Shown: positions 6,562 to 13,406, counted from the first letter of the stretch. The stretch is DNA of 64,000 bases from Streptomyces sp. NBC_00554 (GCF_041431135.1 NZ_CP107799.1:3844001-3908000), one strand, 5' to 3'. The notes: generated from the sequence alone by a model not told the origin. A program made the numbers and translations.

Positions 6562-6783
6562 TGCTGTGCCTCCCGCTGAAGTTACCCACTGGTAGGAACG
6601 GACCTCGCGACGGACTGTAGTGGCGGCCGTGCGCCCGGTGGAGTGGCCCACGCTGGGACCTTGCTCACAGACCGGCCCACGGCCCTGTTTGATGGGCTTC
6701 GCTCTCCACCATGCCGCGTAGTTCGCAACCGGTCATGCGCGGGGAGCATCTCAGGTGACACACGACGGCACGACGGGGGTCCG

Positions 6784-7665
6784 ATGCGTACGACACCACC
6801 CATGACGAGACCGACGAGGCACGTGAAGCGGTCGCTGGCCGCGCTCGTGGCACTCGCCGCGGTCGGCGCGTGCACCGCTCAGGCCGTGGACACGGACGGC
6901 AAGCAGCCGCCGCTGGTGAGGATCGACGGCACGGCGGGCTCCACTCCCAAGCCCAGCGCCTCTGGCTCCCCCACCGACTCGCCCGACTCGCCCGACGACC
7001 CCAAGCCGAGCACCAAGCCCACCCCGGTCGCCGCCGAGGTCCTCTGGTCCCGGGGCGACGAGGGCACCGAGGTACGCGAGGTGCAGGCCCGGCTGCGGCA
7101 GGTCGCCTGGCTCTTCGACGGGCCGACGGGGACGTACGACGACCTGACCGCCACCGCCGTGAAGGGCTTCCAGGGCAAGCGGGGTCTGCCAAGGACCGGC
7201 GCGATGGACACCGTCACCTGGCAGCGGCTGCGGAAGATGACGCACGAGCCCGGCAAATGGGAGCTGTACGCGTACGGCGGGCAGCCCGCCGCGGAGCCGG
7301 ACTCGCGCTGTATGACGGGGCGCGTGCTGTGCATCAGCAAGACGAGCCGCACGCTGCGCTGGATGGTCGACGGCCGGACGGTGTCGACGATGGAGGTGCG
7401 ATTCGGCTCGCAGTACACGCCGACCCGCGAAGGTGTGTTCAGCGTCTACTTCAAGTCGCGCTACCACGTGTCGACGCTCTACGACTCGTCCATGCCGTAC
7501 GCCATGTTCTTCAGCGGCGGCCAGGCCGTGCACTTCTCCACCGACTTCGCGGCCCGCGGCTACTTCGGCGCCTCGCACGGCTGCGTCAACGTCCGGGACG
7601 AGGGGAAGATCGCTTCACTGTTCGCGCAGGTCCGCACGGGTGACAAGGTCGTCGTCTACTGGTGA
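6784..7665 (+). CDS. Lipoprotein L,D-transpeptidase with peptidoglycan-binding domain
   Basis: The 293-aa protein starts at ATG 6784. A basic N-terminus and hydrophobic segment end in a lipobox-like LAAVGAC, which gives a lipidated Cys30. A Pro/Ser linker follows, then a PG_binding_1 domain (about residues 80-145, GDEGTEVREVQARLRQ), then a YkuD catalytic domain ending SHGCVNVRD with Cys267 and His265. The enzyme would form 3-3 cross-links in peptidoglycan on the outer face of the membrane. An in-frame longer start at 6643 would put 47 polar residues ahead of the signal peptide and is rejected. A strong hairpin follows the gene. Confidence 0.9.
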   Translation: MRTTPPMTRPTRHVKRSLAALVALAAVGACTAQAVDTDGKQPPLVRIDGTAGSTPKPSASGSPTDSPDSPDDPKPSTKPTPVAAEVLWSRGDEGTEVREVQARLRQVAWLFDGPTGTYDDLTATAVKGFQGKRGLPRTGAMDTVTWQRLRKMTHEPGKWELYAYGGQPAAEPDSRCMTGRVLCISKTSRTLRWMVDGRTVSTMEVRFGSQYTPTREGVFSVYFKSRYHVSTLYDSSMPYAMFFSGGQAVHFSTDFAARGYFGASHGCVNVRDEGKIASLFAQVRTGDKVVVYW

Positions 7666-7886: not shown

Positions 7887-9146
7887 TCAGGATGGGTTTG
7901 CGGGGATCGGGAGGAGCTGGGCCGGGGTGGAGGGGGAGGACGGCGAGGGCGAGGGCGACGACGGCGATGGGGACGGGGTGAGGATTCCGTCGCTGCCGAC
8001 GCCATCGTTGTCACGGGCGCCGTCACCGGCGTCTCCGCTACCGAGGTCATCGTTGCCGCGATCGCCGTTGCCCTGATCGTCGTTACGGCCGTCGTTGTTG
8101 CGGCCGTCGTCGTCACGGCTGTCGTCGTTGTCGCCCGGGAGCACCGGGAGCAGCGGGAATATGTGGTTTCCGTCGTCGTCACCACCCCCGTCCTCCGGGA
8201 CGGAGCCCTGGTCGGAGCGGGTGTCCGCGCCCGAGCTCGTGCTCCCGGCCGAGTCCTTGGCGTCGTTCCGGCCGTCGCCGCCGGTGTCCGTCCGGTCCAG
8301 GATTCCGTTGCAGTACGTCTTCAGCTGCCCGTTGCCGCCACCGCCCGCGGCGTCCTCCAGGACGCTCTTGCGGCCGGCGTCCAGGTCCTTGCCGTCGAGG
8401 ACGTCGCGGCAGGACGAACGTGTCTGGCTCCACCACTCGCCGGTACGGCCGGACTTCCCCGCCTCGTCCGAGCCCTGCTGCCCGCTCGTGGCGCCGCCGC
8501 CCGCCTCGTCCTTCGAGGAGCCGCCGACGGACGGGCCGTTCGTGGTGGCGCCGGGCGCCGGGACCTGGGAGTCGTCGCCGTCCGGGGCACCCGGCGACGG
8601 CGAGCCGACCGGGCGCTCCGGCGTAGCCGCGGCCGTCACCGTGGCGGCAGGGCCCGGCTTCTCGTCACCGAACGGAGTCGGCAGCATTCCGGTTCCGGCC
8701 GCGACGGCGACCCCGCCGATCATCCCGGCGGCCAGCGCGGCGGCGAGACCGAGGCGTGTGGGGCGCCCCCAACGGGCCCGGCGACCACCGGAGTCGGGAC
8801 GTCCCAGACGTACGAGACCGGCGTCGGAGGGGTGCGAGGTGATGCGGGAGACAGGGTGCGTACGAGGACGCGGGGCCAGCTGTTCCACCTCGCCGTGCCG
8901 GTCCGCGCGCACCTTGCGGAACGCTGCCAACGCTGCAGCCTCGCCGGGGAGTTCGTCGCTGCTGAGCGTGGGTTCGGCGGCCAGCGCGGCAAGTGCCCCG
9001 GCGAGCCTGTCCACCTGGTTCCTGGCCTCGGTGTCGACGGCTTCCAGGGGTTCTCCGCGCAGCAGACGCTCGGCGGCGTCGCGGTCCAGCCACCGGCCCG
9101 GGGGCCGTGGGTTGTCACCCGGGAAGACACAGCGCTCGTCGGCCAT
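7887..9146 (-). CDS. Membrane partner (putative anti-sigma) of ECF sigma factor, pair 1
   Basis: The 419-aa protein has a cytoplasmic N-terminus (about 135 residues), one membrane helix (LGLAAALAAGMIGGVAVAAG) and an outer part. The outer part carries a Cys-bounded segment, CRDVLDGKDL to YCNGILD with AAGGGGNG between, and then long Asp/Gly/Asn-rich and Ser/Pro repeats. Start ATG 9146 overlaps the stop of the sigma gene (TGATG), so translation is probably coupled. Topology and position fit an anti-sigma factor, but no zinc-binding ZAS motif is visible. The paralogue at 10193 shares the AAxAAFRxxR cytoplasmic stretch and the Cys segment. No function beyond this is claimed. Confidence 0.7.
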   Translation of the reverse strand: MADERCVFPGDNPRPPGRWLDRDAAERLLRGEPLEAVDTEARNQVDRLAGALAALAAEPTLSSDELPGEAAALAAFRKVRADRHGEVEQLAPRPRTHPVSRITSHPSDAGLVRLGRPDSGGRRARWGRPTRLGLAAALAAGMIGGVAVAAGTGMLPTPFGDEKPGPAATVTAAATPERPVGSPSPGAPDGDDSQVPAPGATTNGPSVGGSSKDEAGGGATSGQQGSDEAGKSGRTGEWWSQTRSSCRDVLDGKDLDAGRKSVLEDAAGGGGNGQLKTYCNGILDRTDTGGDGRNDAKDSAGSTSSGADTRSDQGSVPEDGGGDDDGNHIFPLLPVLPGDNDDSRDDDGRNNDGRNDDQGNGDRGNDDLGSGDAGDGARDNDGVGSDGILTPSPSPSSPSPSPSSPSTPAQLLPIPANPS

Positions 9147-9808
9147 CACATGTCCTTCTGCGTCCGCGAACGCGTATGCGTCACACCGGCGGACGTCACC
9201 GCGCGTGTACGCGGTTCTCTTTGTGGCGGTACGGCGCCGAGTGCGCCGGCGGATTCCGGATCGTCGCCGAGCAACTCCGCGAGCCGTTTCAGACCGCGGT
9301 GCGCCGCTGTGCGCACCGCGCCGGGGCGCTTGCCGAGTGTCTCGGCCGCGGTCTTGGCGTCGAGGCCGACGACGACGCGCAGTACGACGGCCTCCGCCTG
9401 GTCCTGCGGGAGCTGGGCTATGAGCGAGAGGGTGCTGTTGGTGGCCAGGGCCTCGATGGCCTCGCCCGCGGTGTCGGACTCGGCGGCCTTGCCGGTCAGT
9501 TCGGTCTCGTCGCCGCCTATGGCGGGGCGGCGCCCGCGCATCCGTATGTGGTCGAGGGCGCGGTTGCGGGCGATGCGGGCGGCCCAGCCGCGGAAGCGGT
9601 CGGCATCCCCGCTGAACCGCTCCAGGTCACGGGCGATCTGCAGCCAGGCCTCGGACGTGACGTCCTCCGCGTCCGGGTCGCCGACCAGCGTCCGGACGTA
9701 CCCGAGCAGCCGTGGGTGCACCGCGCGGTACACAGTCCGGAACGCGGTCTCGTCCCCGTCCTGTGCCGCAAGCACCGCGGCAGTCAGCTCCGCGTCGTCC
9801 CCCAGCAC
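9146..9808 (-). CDS. ECF-type RNA polymerase sigma factor, pair 1
   Basis: The 220-aa protein has a sigma-70 region 2 (ETAFRTVYRAVHPRLLGYV, then FRGWAARIARNRALDHIR) and a region 4 helix-turn-helix (AKTAAETLGKRPGAVRTAAH). Start is GTG 9808 behind AGAGGGG. It is followed without a gap by its membrane partner gene. The upstream minus-strand sequence has a GCAACC and a CGGCGA element about 19 bases apart, a weak ECF-type promoter candidate, so autoregulation is possible but not shown. It is about 50% similar by eye to the sigma factor at 11423. Confidence 0.9.
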   Translation of the reverse strand: MLGDDAELTAAVLAAQDGDETAFRTVYRAVHPRLLGYVRTLVGDPDAEDVTSEAWLQIARDLERFSGDADRFRGWAARIARNRALDHIRMRGRRPAIGGDETELTGKAAESDTAGEAIEALATNSTLSLIAQLPQDQAEAVVLRVVVGLDAKTAAETLGKRPGAVRTAAHRGLKRLAELLGDDPESAGALGAVPPQREPRTRAVTSAGVTHTRSRTQKDM

Positions 9809-10192
9809 CGCGCGCGCCCCTCTTTGCGCCTAAGCCGGCGCCGCTTTCGCGGACCGGGTACTCGCCGTCGTGGTTACTCAATTGATGGTTGCGGTCTCAT
9901 GCCCCGCCTGGTTGCGGCTGTCGGCCCTCCGCAGCCCGGCGCGAATGGCACGTTACGGCGTGAAACCGCTGTGCGTCCATGTTCGTACAACGTGCAACGA
10001 CGTGGTGACGGAGCGAGGTGTGACAGAAAGCGCAGTCGCGGCGCTGTAGAAAGTACGGGCCGCCGCGCGGCCCGTGCCGCGCGACGGCCGGGGCCTCTCC
10101 TGTGGGGGGTGGCGGCCCCGGCCGTTGCCATCGGCGAGGGCGGGACCTGCTGCTTCCCCTGGCTGTACCGGAACCGGGTCGACTACTTGCCC
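9809..10192. other. 384-bp non-coding stretch between the two sigma pairs
   Basis: It holds the upstream region of sigma pair 1, a 7-bp hairpin (10055-10075) and the terminator at 10084-10125. I see no supportable gene in it. Confidence 0.6.
10084..10125 (-). terminator. Hairpin terminator after the pair-2 membrane partner gene
   Basis: ACGGCCGGGGCC and its exact complement (10114-10125) form a 12-bp stem with an 18-base loop, 68 bases beyond the stop codon at 10193. Confidence 0.7.
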
Positions 10193-11329
10193 TCAGCCCT
10201 TGTCCTTGGACTTCTTGGGTTTCGGCGTTGCCTTGGGCGTGCTGTTCGCCTTGCCGGGGGATCTGGTGGCCTCGTGGTCCAACTGCCCGGCGCAGTACGC
10301 CTCTACGTTGCCCTCGCCACCCGCGGCGTCGATCAGCCGCTGCCAGGCCGTCGAACTCAGTGCCTTGCCCCGGCCCTTGACCGCGTCGTACGCGCGACAG
10401 TGGGCCTCGGTGTCCTTCGCCTGGGACGGGTGGCCGGACGGTGCGGTCTGCTCGGGGCCGGGCGGCGTCGGGTTCGCGGGCCCGGGCCCGGACCGCTCCG
10501 GGGCGGCGCTGCTCGACGGCGGCCGGGTGTCGTCCCGGTCGGCACCGCCGTCGTCCGACACCGAACCGATGCCCGCGACGGCGACCCCGCCCAGCGTCAG
10601 GCTCGCCAGCAGCACGGCCAACGTGGTCCGCAGCGAGCGGCCCACCTTCCGCTGCTCCCGCGGCCGCCAGTCGTCGCGCCGCCGGGAGCGCGCGGGTCGC
10701 ACGGCGTGCGCGCCCGCGTCACGCGCGGCGCGAAACGCGGCCACCGCCCGCGCCTCCGCACCGGCATCACTCACCACACGCCGGCGCACGGCAGCGAGCA
10801 GCACCTCGACGGCGGGGTCTTCACCACCCGGGGGGTGCATCTCGCCGACAGGGGGGTCGCCCGCAAGCGGTTTCGGGAGGGTGGGGTCGTTGTTCGCGGG
10901 TGGTTCGACGGGGGCGCGGGCGCCGTCCGCAGGCGGTTCGACGGAGGCCGGGTCGCCGTCCGCAGGCGGTTCGACGGAGGCAGGATCGTCGCCCACAGGC
11001 GGCGCCACGAAGGCAGGATCGTCGCCCGCCTGACGCACCGCTGCTGCTGGCTCGTCGCCCGCGGGGTGCATCGCGCCGCCTGACTCGTCGCCCGCAGGCG
11101 GCCCGGCAGAGGCAGGACCGCCGTCCGCAGGTGGCCTCGCGGAGGCGGGATCGTCGCCCGCCGGGCGCACCGCCGCTGCTCCTGGCTCGTCGTCCGTGGG
11201 GCGCGCCCCGACGACAGGCTCATCGCCTGCGGGGCGGGCCCCGACGGCAGGCTCGTCGCCTGCGGGGTGCGCGACCCGACGGTCGGGGGTCCCGCCACCG
11301 CTCTGCCGCTCACCCATGTCTGGATCCAT
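10193..11329 (-). CDS. Repeat-rich membrane partner of ECF sigma factor, pair 2
   Basis: With start ATG 11329 the protein has 378 residues (ATG 11317 and GTG 11395 are alternatives). The N-terminal ~170 residues are degenerate 10-14-residue repeats built around PAGDEPA, PPADGDPAS and related units. Next come a helical AEARAVAAFRAARDA segment, a membrane helix (LAVLLASLTLGGVAVAGIG) and an outer domain with HCRAYDAVKGRGKAL, AAGGEGNVEAYC and a Lys-rich end. The outer domain matches the Cys segment of the pair-1 partner, so the two are paralogues. It lies downstream of an ECF sigma gene, and an anti-sigma role is inferred from position and topology only. Confidence 0.65.
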   Translation of the reverse strand: MDPDMGERQSGGGTPDRRVAHPAGDEPAVGARPAGDEPVVGARPTDDEPGAAAVRPAGDDPASARPPADGGPASAGPPAGDESGGAMHPAGDEPAAAVRQAGDDPAFVAPPVGDDPASVEPPADGDPASVEPPADGARAPVEPPANNDPTLPKPLAGDPPVGEMHPPGGEDPAVEVLLAAVRRRVVSDAGAEARAVAAFRAARDAGAHAVRPARSRRRDDWRPREQRKVGRSLRTTLAVLLASLTLGGVAVAGIGSVSDDGGADRDDTRPPSSSAAPERSGPGPANPTPPGPEQTAPSGHPSQAKDTEAHCRAYDAVKGRGKALSSTAWQRLIDAAGGEGNVEAYCAGQLDHEATRSPGKANSTPKATPKPKKSKDKG

Positions 11330-11422
11330 CCCTGAGACTGCCCGACCTAATCGGCTTGCTCGACCTGCCCGATCCACTGGACGTGCCCGGCCCACTCGGC
11401 CTGCCCGCCGGCTTCCTGCCGC

Positions 11423-12043
11423 TCATCCCGACTCCCCCAGCGTCCGGGGTTCCTCATCCGTCACACCCTCGACGCCGAGTTGGCGCGCGAGGCGCTTCAG
11501 GCCGCGGTGGGCGGCGGTGCGTACCGCGCCCGGGCGCTTGCCGAGGACGCGCGCGGCGGCGGGCCCGTCCAGGCCGACGACCACCCGCAGCAGTACGGCC
11601 TCGGCCTGGTCGCGAGGCAGCCCGGCGACCAGTTCCAGGGCGTCCTGGGTGGAGAGGGCCTCCAGCGCCTGGTCGTCCGTGGAGTGCGTACCCGGCAGTT
11701 CCAGTACGTCCTGCTCGAGCGTGGTCGCCCGCGGCCGCACCTTCAGGCGTCGCAGATGGTCGAGCGCCCGGTGCCGGGCGATGGTCGCGGTCCAGCCCCG
11801 GAAGCCGGCCCCGTCCCCCTTGAACCGGCCCAGATCCCGGGCGATCTCCAGCCAGGCGTCGGACGCGACATCCTCCGCGTCGTCACCGACGATCCCCCGC
11901 AGATACCCGAGCAGTCCGGGCTGCACAAGCCGGTACGCGACCGCGAAGGCAGCCTCGTCACCGTCCTGCGCCCGCGCGACGGCGACGCCCAGTTCCCCGT
12001 CGTACGCCTGCGCGCGGCGGGGTTCCCCTCGCTGGCCCAACAC
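11423..12043 (-). CDS. ECF-type RNA polymerase sigma factor, pair 2
   Basis: The 206-aa protein has region 2 (EAAFAVAYRLVQPGLLGYL, FRGWTATIARHRALDHLR) and region 4 (GPAAARVLGKRPGAVRTAAH). GTG 12043 is chosen because GAGGA sits just upstream and conserved sequence begins soon after. Frames starting at 12148 add unmatched residues. The region-4 block KRPGAVRTAAHRGLKRLA is identical to that of the sigma factor at 9146, so the pairs arose by duplication. The partner gene starts about 94 bases downstream. Confidence 0.88.
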   Translation of the reverse strand: MLGQRGEPRRAQAYDGELGVAVARAQDGDEAAFAVAYRLVQPGLLGYLRGIVGDDAEDVASDAWLEIARDLGRFKGDGAGFRGWTATIARHRALDHLRRLKVRPRATTLEQDVLELPGTHSTDDQALEALSTQDALELVAGLPRDQAEAVLLRVVVGLDGPAAARVLGKRPGAVRTAAHRGLKRLARQLGVEGVTDEEPRTLGESG

Positions 12044-12192
12044 TGTCCTCGTTCGTACCGAATTCGCCCGAATTTCACGCCGTTCGACACAGTCGGGCCG
12101 TGTCGACGCCCTCATGGTCATCAGCGTCGGCCCCCACATAAATGTCACAGCACATCAGCCGCCCCTTCCACCCCTCCCGCCCCTGCCCCGCC

Positions 12193-12600
12193 TCAGGCGA
12201 TCTGCCGGGACGCCCGCCCATGCAGCTGCAGATAGAACGTCCGTACGGATTCCAGCTCCCCCACCTCGAACCGCTTCACGACCTTGCCGAGCGGGTTCCA
12301 CACCCGCCCGTCGGACATCCGCACCCCGACGGGCTGCCCGAACAACTCCCGCTGCCCGGCATCGAATTCGACCCACCGGGCCCCGGCCCGCCGAACCAGC
12401 ACCTCACCCGTGTACGCGCCGAGCCCGAACAGCACATGCTCGACCCTGCCACGCTCGGGCTCCCCCTTCCGCAAGCCGTCCACGATGAAGTCGACGACCC
12501 GCAGACTGTTCACGGAGTAGTCCAGCGGCACCCGGTTCCGCGCCGTGATCTGCCGCACGAACTGCCCCGCATGCTGCCGCATCGACACATCGACCGACAT
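12193..12600 (-). CDS. Small conserved protein, paralogue of the gene at 18045
   Basis: The 135-aa soluble protein starts at ATG 12600 behind GGAG. I do not recognise a named domain. It shares an ordered set of motifs with the protein at 18045-18512: LDYS..SL..VD near the N-terminus, GAYTGEV in the middle, and MSDGRVWNP near the C-terminus. Two copies in one window, both beside cell-envelope or regulatory genes, suggest a small Streptomyces-type family. Function unknown. Confidence 0.6.
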   Translation of the reverse strand: MSVDVSMRQHAGQFVRQITARNRVPLDYSVNSLRVVDFIVDGLRKGEPERGRVEHVLFGLGAYTGEVLVRRAGARWVEFDAGQRELFGQPVGVRMSDGRVWNPLGKVVKRFEVGELESVRTFYLQLHGRASRQIA

Positions 12601-12713: not shown

Positions 12714-12758
12714 AATATACAGTGGATCATGTATATTGATACACAAAGCCGTGTATCA
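12714..12758. promoter_or_regulatory. Operator/promoter region of the VapBC module
   Basis: Two overlapping inverted repeats lie in AT-rich DNA. One is AATATAC (12714-12720) and GTATATT (12731-12737). The other is TGATACAC (12737-12744) and GTGTATCA (12751-12758). Toxin-antitoxin operons are usually autorepressed at such sites. Confidence 0.7.
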
Positions 12759-12771
12759 CGAGGAGGCGCTC

Positions 12772-12999
12772 ATGAGCCGCACCGTCATCGACCTCGACGA
12801 CGAAGCCCTGGAAGCAGCCGCCATAGAGCTCGGCACGACGACGAAGCGCGACACGATCAACACCGCATTGCGGGAGATCGTCGCTCGCAACCGTCGCCTG
12901 CGCGCCTTGCACGAGTTGCAGGACCTCGCGGCAGAAGGTGCCCTTGACGTCGAACTCCTCCTCGACAAGCGCAACTACCGAGGGGGAAATAGCACGTGA
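12772..12999 (+). CDS. VapB-like antitoxin
   Basis: The 75-aa protein begins MSRTVIDLDDEALEAAA and has a ribbon-helix-helix-like segment (TTKRDTINTALREIV), typical of VapB antitoxins of the type found in actinobacteria. Its C-terminal half (ELLLDKRNYRGG) would block the toxin. ATG 12772 follows GAGGAGG at 12761. Its stop overlaps the toxin start by 4 bases (GTGA), so translation is coupled. Confidence 0.85.
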   Translation: MSRTVIDLDDEALEAAAIELGTTTKRDTINTALREIVARNRRLRALHELQDLAAEGALDVELLLDKRNYRGGNST

Positions 13000-13406
13000 C
13001 CGTCCCGGACTATCTCATCGACACCTCGGCATTGGCACGAATCCTGCTGCGCCAGGCATCCGAGGAATGGGAGCGCCGCGTTGGCGGCGGGCTGGTCGCC
13101 CTGTGCGACATCAGTGAACTGGAGGTGCTGTACTCCGCTCGCTCTGCCAAAGACCGTGAGGTCATCCAGGACAGGCTGAACCAGTTCGCCTGGTGCCCCA
13201 TGCCCGACGGCATCTACCGGCGAGCCCGCGTCGTACAGGAACAACTCACCACCAAGGGCGAGCACCGCAGCGCCGGAGCCATCGACCTCCTGGTCGCCGC
13301 GGTCGCCGAGGAGGCCGGCCTCACCCTCCTGCACTACGACCGGGACTTCGAGACCATCGCCCGGACGACGGGGCAGCCGGTCCGCCTGATCGACCTCAAG
13401 GACTAG
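12996..13406 (+). CDS. VapC-like PIN-domain toxin
   Basis: The 136-aa PIN-domain protein carries the acidic residues that bind Mg: Asp in YLIDTSALAR, Glu in DISELEVLY, and Asp in SAGAIDLLVAA and LHYDRDFE. VapC proteins are site-specific RNases, often cutting tRNA, and are held inactive by VapB. All catalytic positions look intact, so the module may be active. It starts at GTG 12996 inside the antitoxin stop. Confidence 0.9.
   Translation: MTVPDYLIDTSALARILLRQASEEWERRVGGGLVALCDISELEVLYSARSAKDREVIQDRLNQFAWCPMPDGIYRRARVVQEQLTTKGEHRSAGAIDLLVAAVAEEAGLTLLHYDRDFETIARTTGQPVRLIDLKD

Follow-up and report, generated by a model that had tools for sequence, protein, structure and literature searches.

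ECF sigma factors form a major route of bacterial signalling, and many of their presumed regulators have no assigned structural class. In the BldN-RsbN system of Streptomyces (class III), as in the two membrane partners described here, the regulator is anchored in the membrane, is of the non-ZAS type and has three short cytoplasmic helices, those of our partners being predicted; the outer domains of RsbN and of the partners differ. The class I anti-sigma factors (RseA, RskA, RsiW) have a presumed role like that of the partners and are membrane-anchored in many cases, zinc being optional (PMC7406223), whereas the short cytoplasmic region of the partners has no Pfam match. For SigD-RsdA of Mycobacterium and for ShbA, the likeness lies on the sigma side (region 4 of SigD, the ShbA model).

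For the locus reported here, we propose that the partners are membrane-anchored anti-sigma factors of a non-zinc type, and that the freed sigma factor would drive the promoters of a second sigma gene, sigma B, and of a small RNA. To this reading we give a probability of about 0.6. Gene pairing, co-conservation, architecture, fusions, Cys conservation, RNA structure and the common promoter-like element were established by computation.

Organization of the locus

The window, i.e. the whole stretch of 64,000 nucleotides that was analysed, corresponds to C1:3844001-3908000 of a 10.08 Mb Streptomyces genome. The interval 7887-12043 carries, on the minus strand, two ECF sigma factors and two membrane partners, in the gene order sigma B, partner B, sigma A, partner A:

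11423..12043, minus strand: ECF sigma factor B, about 206 amino acids (Pfam)
10193..11329, minus strand: membrane partner B, ATG at MDPDMGER, a start kept in relatives
9146..9808, minus strand: ECF sigma factor A, 220 amino acids, regions 2 and 4 (Pfam)
7887..9149, minus strand: membrane partner A, 420 amino acids, its start codon overlapping the sigma A stop

The GTG start of sigma B was chosen by analogy with sigma A and on upstream conservation. The mechanical open reading frame of partner B extends to 11395, and the MDPDMGER start was preferred. In each partner, a short cytoplasmic part is followed by one hydrophobic helix, beyond which come a stalk rich in Ser, Pro and Gly, a C...YC segment and a tail that varies.

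Two neighbouring regions were inspected by eye. The gene at 6643-7665 (plus strand), convergent with partner A, encodes a lipoprotein that resembles an L,D-transpeptidase and is possibly envelope-related. At 12736-12999 and 12996-13406 (plus strand), two overlapping small genes have the look of a VapBC-type antitoxin and a PIN-domain toxin.

Sigma factors and their paralogues

The original prediction had described two sigma-partner pairs with a common region 4 string, and the identical KRPGAVRTAAHRGLKRLA was indeed found in both sigmas, which share 62% identity over 180 amino acids. Both were recognized by Pfam (sigma A: Sigma70_r2, 1.2e-17, and Sigma70_r4_2, 6.8e-12; sigma B: r2, 1.5e-12, and r4_2, 5.3e-11). 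Save for Sigma70_ECF in sigma A, nothing else exceeded the Pfam cut-off in either protein.

A third sigma-partner pair is present in the genome, at C1:9892813. In a tree of 53 sigma sequences, A and B formed one clade each (support 100/100 and 100/99), both inside a group that stood apart from nine further ECF sigmas encoded in this genome. As the fork uniting A, B and the other genera (88/79) was drawn open, an origin of the A and B pairs by tandem duplication inside Streptomyces is plausible, and is put no higher than that.

Region 4 was 39% identical to that of SigD, and the sigma 37% identical to BldN; SigD and BldN both have anti-sigma partners (3vep, 6dxo). BldN (TIGR02952) belongs to the named sigma families that come closest, and the nearest curated sigma model was ShbA, with a score of 91 bits that falls far below the cut-off of 209 bits.

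We take SCO4864/SCO4866 to be the S. coelicolor counterparts of these genes. Upon acidic pH shock, SCO4864 is among the downregulated genes and SCO4866 is in a different list (PMC2631018); during germination, SCO4866 is up more than 3-fold (PMC4367926). The literature on these presumed counterparts holds expression changes and nothing further.

Cytoplasmic part and membrane helix of the partners

Both partners were said to carry AAFRxxR inside and a C-R...AAGG...YC segment outside. These were seen respectively before and after the single membrane helix, the first as AALAAFRKVR and AVAAFRAAR. The corresponding features are:

8880..9092, minus strand: cytoplasmic domain of partner A, three predicted helices, motifs AERLLRGE and ELPGEAAALAAFRKVR
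8685..8753, minus strand: predicted membrane helix of partner A, LGLAAALAAGMIGGVAVAAGTGM, from sequence, with a conserved GG in alignment A4
10565..10627, minus strand: predicted membrane helix of partner B, from sequence and alignment
10884..11281, minus strand: 33-bp repeats in the cytoplasmic linker of partner B, specific to the strain group

The cytoplasmic helices of partner A were predicted by AlphaFold2 at residues 22-29, 39-56 and 67-89, with a pLDDT mostly of 78-85 and of 63 in one block; confidence was low at the predicted membrane helix. The repeat tails described earlier correspond to low-complexity sequence specific to the lineage, namely the 33-bp linker repeats in partner B and, in partner A, a tail rich in Asp, Gly and Asn. 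Among the fetched loci, a similar repeat expansion was found in L043 only, a near relative in which the number of units differs.

The sequences agree with the earlier statement that no ZAS motif is visible: partner B is without cytoplasmic Cys, and partner A has a single one, in MADERC. The Hx3Cx2C motif is absent from both partners, and a genome-wide zf-HC2 scan did not have them among its matches. Absence of the zinc motif would not by itself be unusual, as it is missing in about 44% of class I anti-sigma domains (PMC7406223). The suggestion of an unusual partner class is supported: the partners had no match in Pfam, in NCBIfam or among PDB sequences. In Pfam and NCBIfam, neither partner had a family even at E values up to 1, and the best PDB sequence for the cytoplasmic domain was topoisomerase V, at E = 0.097. 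The RsdA profile PF16751 gave no match in the partners or in the genome, its control having matched nowhere either. For RsbN, we took the neighbour of the presumed BldN sigma to be this protein; the partner cytoplasmic profile showed no similarity to that single presumed RsbN sequence (hhalign probability 0.1).

The outer Cys domain

Beyond the stalk, each partner carries a small domain with two Cys:

8277..8459, minus strand: outer Cys domain of partner A, three helices, Cys codons 8409-8411 and 8310-8312
10270..10423, minus strand: outer Cys domain of partner B, Cys codons 10397-10399 and 10292-10294

In the AlphaFold2 prediction for partner A, the outer helices span residues 230-250, 257-266 and 272-290, with a core pLDDT of about 92-95; Cys246 is in the first of them and Cys279 in the last. 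The B-type Cys domain of the homologue in L044 was predicted with a pLDDT of 83-96. The outer segments of partners A and B matched with an E value of 9e-5, which, coming from a single pairwise BLAST, is modest by itself. A search of the genome with a profile of the Cys segment, the check proposed for a shared outer domain, retrieved exactly three strong proteins (E about 1e-19; next 0.21), namely partners A and B and the third sigma-linked copy.

The original prediction depended on conservation of the Cys pair in orthologues. In a divergent Streptomyces set (57 type-A loci with a sigma gene, L243-L300 minus one contig-end locus, by profile or inspection), the pair was present in every complete type-A partner, 57 of 57. 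Both Cys were also present in all of 58 type-A and 38 type-B distinct segments; as these had been picked by Cys pattern, the divergent type-A set is the unbiased test. The AAGG element drifts in distant members, e.g. AAKGADRVERFC, with the Cys pair remaining steady. Losses of the whole domain are rare and concern partner A of one Streptomyces (L237) and type B in L240. With the rows of misparsed membrane boundary set aside, every outer Cys belongs to one of these domains, at exactly two per domain.

Against PDB sequences, the best match of the outer domain was an aminotransferase segment, which was taken as chance because of its E value of 0.044 and its coverage of half the domain. In fold searches with partner A, no solved structure resembled the outer domain and no family was named: Foldseek reached an E value of 6.4 at best, and VIA-align gave Z scores of up to 2.8, largely for residues 225-291.

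The redox sensor suggested at the outset fared less well. One Cys pair per domain, with none elsewhere outside, fits a structural disulfide at least as well; two outer Cys and no others favour an intramolecular bond, and the pair looks like a structural disulfide. In a redox switch, reversible oxidation would alter the outer domain and free the sigma. As a switch would have it, every complete Streptomyces type-A partner tested keeps both Cys, against drift at most other positions, and there is exactly one pair per domain; we nevertheless hold this alternative unlikely, as the core Leu and Ala of the three-helix fold are likewise invariant, the two Cys belong to different helices, which a disulfide would staple, and the Cys domain is absent from some relatives.

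Conservation, exchange of outer domains and natural fusions

Of 101 Streptomyces genomes sampled, 90 had a homologue of partner A, and it adjoins sigma A in all the loci examined but one, which lies at a contig end. The order sigma B-partner B-sigma A-partner A was that of most of loci L043-L080. In the divergent set, sigma B was seen, within the fetched stretch, in only 5 of the 57 type-A loci.

With profile A2, the Cys domain was detected in 37/196 genomes and 15/81 genera of the class, and across the phylum sample in 25/396 genomes and 6/245 genera. Outside Streptomyces, in the fetched loci, it mostly follows an ECF sigma gene that belongs to the subfamily of sigmas A and B. A tandem double Cys domain with four outer Cys was observed in L176, L178 and L179. 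The cytoplasmic profile A5 found relatives in 18 of the 81 genera, including sigma-linked partners with other outer parts, His/Pro/Ser-rich tails in some. By eye, L223, L224 and L228 have the same cytoplasmic motif, and beta-rich, possibly Ig-like outer parts replace the Cys domain; Pfam gave an Ig-like hint for L224 only, below the cut-off. The cytoplasmic helices and the membrane helix are thus what is constant and sigma-linked, and the outer domain is exchangeable.

Some loci depart from this arrangement. L160 has the partner domains, and L156 and L163 have membrane-plus-Cys proteins, with no sigma found within the fetched 7 kb. In L181 (3338-3817, plus strand), from another Streptomyces, the Cys domain stands alone in a frame of 159 amino acids, apparently the remnant of a pair.

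Furthermore, in two loci one open frame joins a diverged sigma of the ECF type to a membrane helix and the Cys domain:

L157, 3148-4800, minus strand: sigma profile E 1.6e-54, Cys domain 6.5e-13
L175, 2184-3746, plus strand: sigma profile E 1.2e-42, Cys domain 2.7e-10

Region 4 of the fusion was over the Pfam cut-off in L157 and under it in L175. These fusions are the best evidence that the partner may act on the sigma, and it is mainly from them that we infer binding of the partner to its sigma. What they show is linkage, not the sign of regulation, and the cytoplasmic part is without a match to known anti-sigma domains, both of which would suit a membrane tether or co-activator that brings the sigma to the membrane. 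We consider such a role improbable: the order of the genes, sigma first and membrane protein second, is that of known ECF anti-sigma pairs, in which one membrane helix and short helices on the cytoplasmic side are likewise found.

A promoter-like element and a conserved RNA

The original prediction had overlooked a conserved RNA and a common promoter-like element in the same interval:

10019..10046, plus strand: TGTGACA-N16-CGCTG element, facing the RNA, with sigma A behind it
10047..10130, plus strand: conserved two-hairpin RNA of about 85 bases, directly downstream of the reversed element, apical UCUCCUGUGGGGGGUGGC
12122..12149, minus strand: TGTGACA-N16-CGCTG element, pointing at sigma B

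A third copy of the element precedes the third sigma paralogue. The exact element occurs 7 times in the 10 Mb genome, versus once for the reversed control, and the copies before the RNA, sigma B and the third sigma make up three of these seven. With a slightly looser pattern, 105 of 119 Streptomyces sigma A upstream regions had it in reverse orientation; for sigma B, 28 of 43 such regions had it in forward orientation. Both counts come from related genomes and hence are not independent events. The spacing of the A-type element was identical in 122/122 distinct sequences, with 16-18 allowed. In other genera, none of the sigma genes examined was preceded by TGTGACA/TGTCACA-like sites.

The ECF41-type promoter motif is TGTCACA-N16-CGTC. 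A candidate of this type upstream of sigma A fits the window and fails in other species, and was rejected; the conserved TGTGACA-N16-CGCTG near sigma A is on the strand opposite to this match.

The second stem of the RNA comprises 13 bp, all positions of which were paired in 55/55 distinct sequences, with four pairs changed on both sides in a compensatory manner. When the partner strand was shifted by 1-3 columns as a control, pairing dropped from 100% to 40-68%. The alignment contained 50 G-U cells and 0 A-C cells on the plus strand, which is therefore the strand of the structured RNA. None of the 18 apical bases UCUCCUGUGGGGGGUGGC varies in this alignment, which was gathered by the first 17 of them; in seven further loci, the apical loop is present and the exact upstream element absent. 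The first hairpin varies in sequence and was predicted in 6/6 folded examples.

A covariance model detected the RNA in 33/33 Streptomyces genomes scanned and, outside Streptomyces, gave one marginal match among 345 genomes sampled in the class. In 30/30 fetched matches, the RNA and a sigma gene of the A/B subfamily are divergently arranged. Rfam gave no match up to E = 1 across 9700-12400, and the locus is absent from the main text of a comparative Streptomyces RNA study (PMC3765725), supplementary tables aside.

Judged by its pairing and conservation, the hairpin block is probably an unrecorded, genus-wide small RNA gene beside sigma A. A GC-rich stem lying where the partner B operon ends could stop transcription, and the hairpin might accordingly be a mere terminator, or a DNA site. 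We give this explanation little credence, since the hairpin is kept beside sigma A in most genomes without detected sigma B, its 18 apical bases do not vary, the balance of G-U over A-C cells indicates a plus-strand RNA, and a promoter-like element of fixed spacing stands ahead of it. Taking the hairpins as a small RNA, its presence where sigma B was not detected makes sigma A the natural candidate for its regulator, and its UCUCCU loop could pair with ribosome-binding sites.

A model for the sigma-partner pairs

In the anti-sigma mechanism that we propose, the three short cytoplasmic helices of the partner would hold the sigma at the membrane, and one membrane helix and a disordered stalk would join these helices to the small outer domain. 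The latter, three helices closed by one disulfide, would read an envelope signal, and this signal would free the sigma, probably through cleavage of the partner. The freed sigma would act at TGTGAC-N17-CGCTG promoters and would raise both sigma B, in a positive feedback, and the small structured RNA beside sigma A. Binding, inhibition, proteolysis, the disulfide state, and the sigma-dependence and function of the RNA are the inferred parts of this scheme.

The anti-sigma reading is favoured by the adjacency of sigma and partner, kept across Streptomyces and in most relatives beyond the genus, by the natural fusions L157 and L175, and by the way in which the cytoplasmic motif and the membrane helix stay with the sigma subfamily while the outer part varies. 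The three predicted cytoplasmic helices and the three-helix Cys domain point in the same direction, as do the anti-sigma partners of the similar sigmas SigD and BldN. In addition, the location of three of the seven genomic element copies at these sigma loci speaks for the model.

Several observations count against it. For a homologue of the sigma B-partner B pair, predicted as one chain across the stop codon of the sigma gene, there was confidence in the sigma and in the Cys domain and none in the interface of sigma and partner (pTM 0.35), so that the partner was not confidently placed on the sigma. Also on this side are the empty profile comparison with the presumed RsbN, L160, L156 and L163, with no sigma in the fetched 7 kb, and the loss of the Cys domain in L237 and in type B of L240.

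A broader proposal is that the partners represent a class of actinobacterial membrane anti-sigma factors that is so far uncatalogued and whose outer sensors are interchangeable; in Streptomyces, this class would be hard-wired to a dedicated, sigma-driven divergent sRNA beside the sigma gene. We put this forward tentatively, at somewhat short of even odds. A partner family absent from the searched libraries, spread over 15-18 of the 81 sampled genera and with swapped outer domains, offers a tractable sensor system. Should these sigmas drive the small RNA, the locus would form a conserved Streptomyces sigma-RNA response circuit.

Comparison with known systems

Small RNAs that depend on envelope sigmas are known elsewhere, as MicA/RybB with sigmaE and the RpoE-linked sRNAs of Rhodobacter. 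Like these, the RNA described here is small, structured and apparently under an ECF-type promoter, as judged here from sequence; unlike them, it adjoins the presumed sigma gene and belongs to no Rfam family.

The layout of the L157 and L175 fusions resembles that of ECF48, ECF52 and ECF53, which are fused to membrane regulators. The ECF48, ECF52 and ECF53 fusions carry a zinc-finger domain (PMC8999054), whereas L157 and L175 are without a zinc finger, and the genes of the window are separate. In its way of working, the proposed model is like that of membrane-anchored systems such as BldN-RsbN or SigK-RskA, with the partners standing outside the zinc class.
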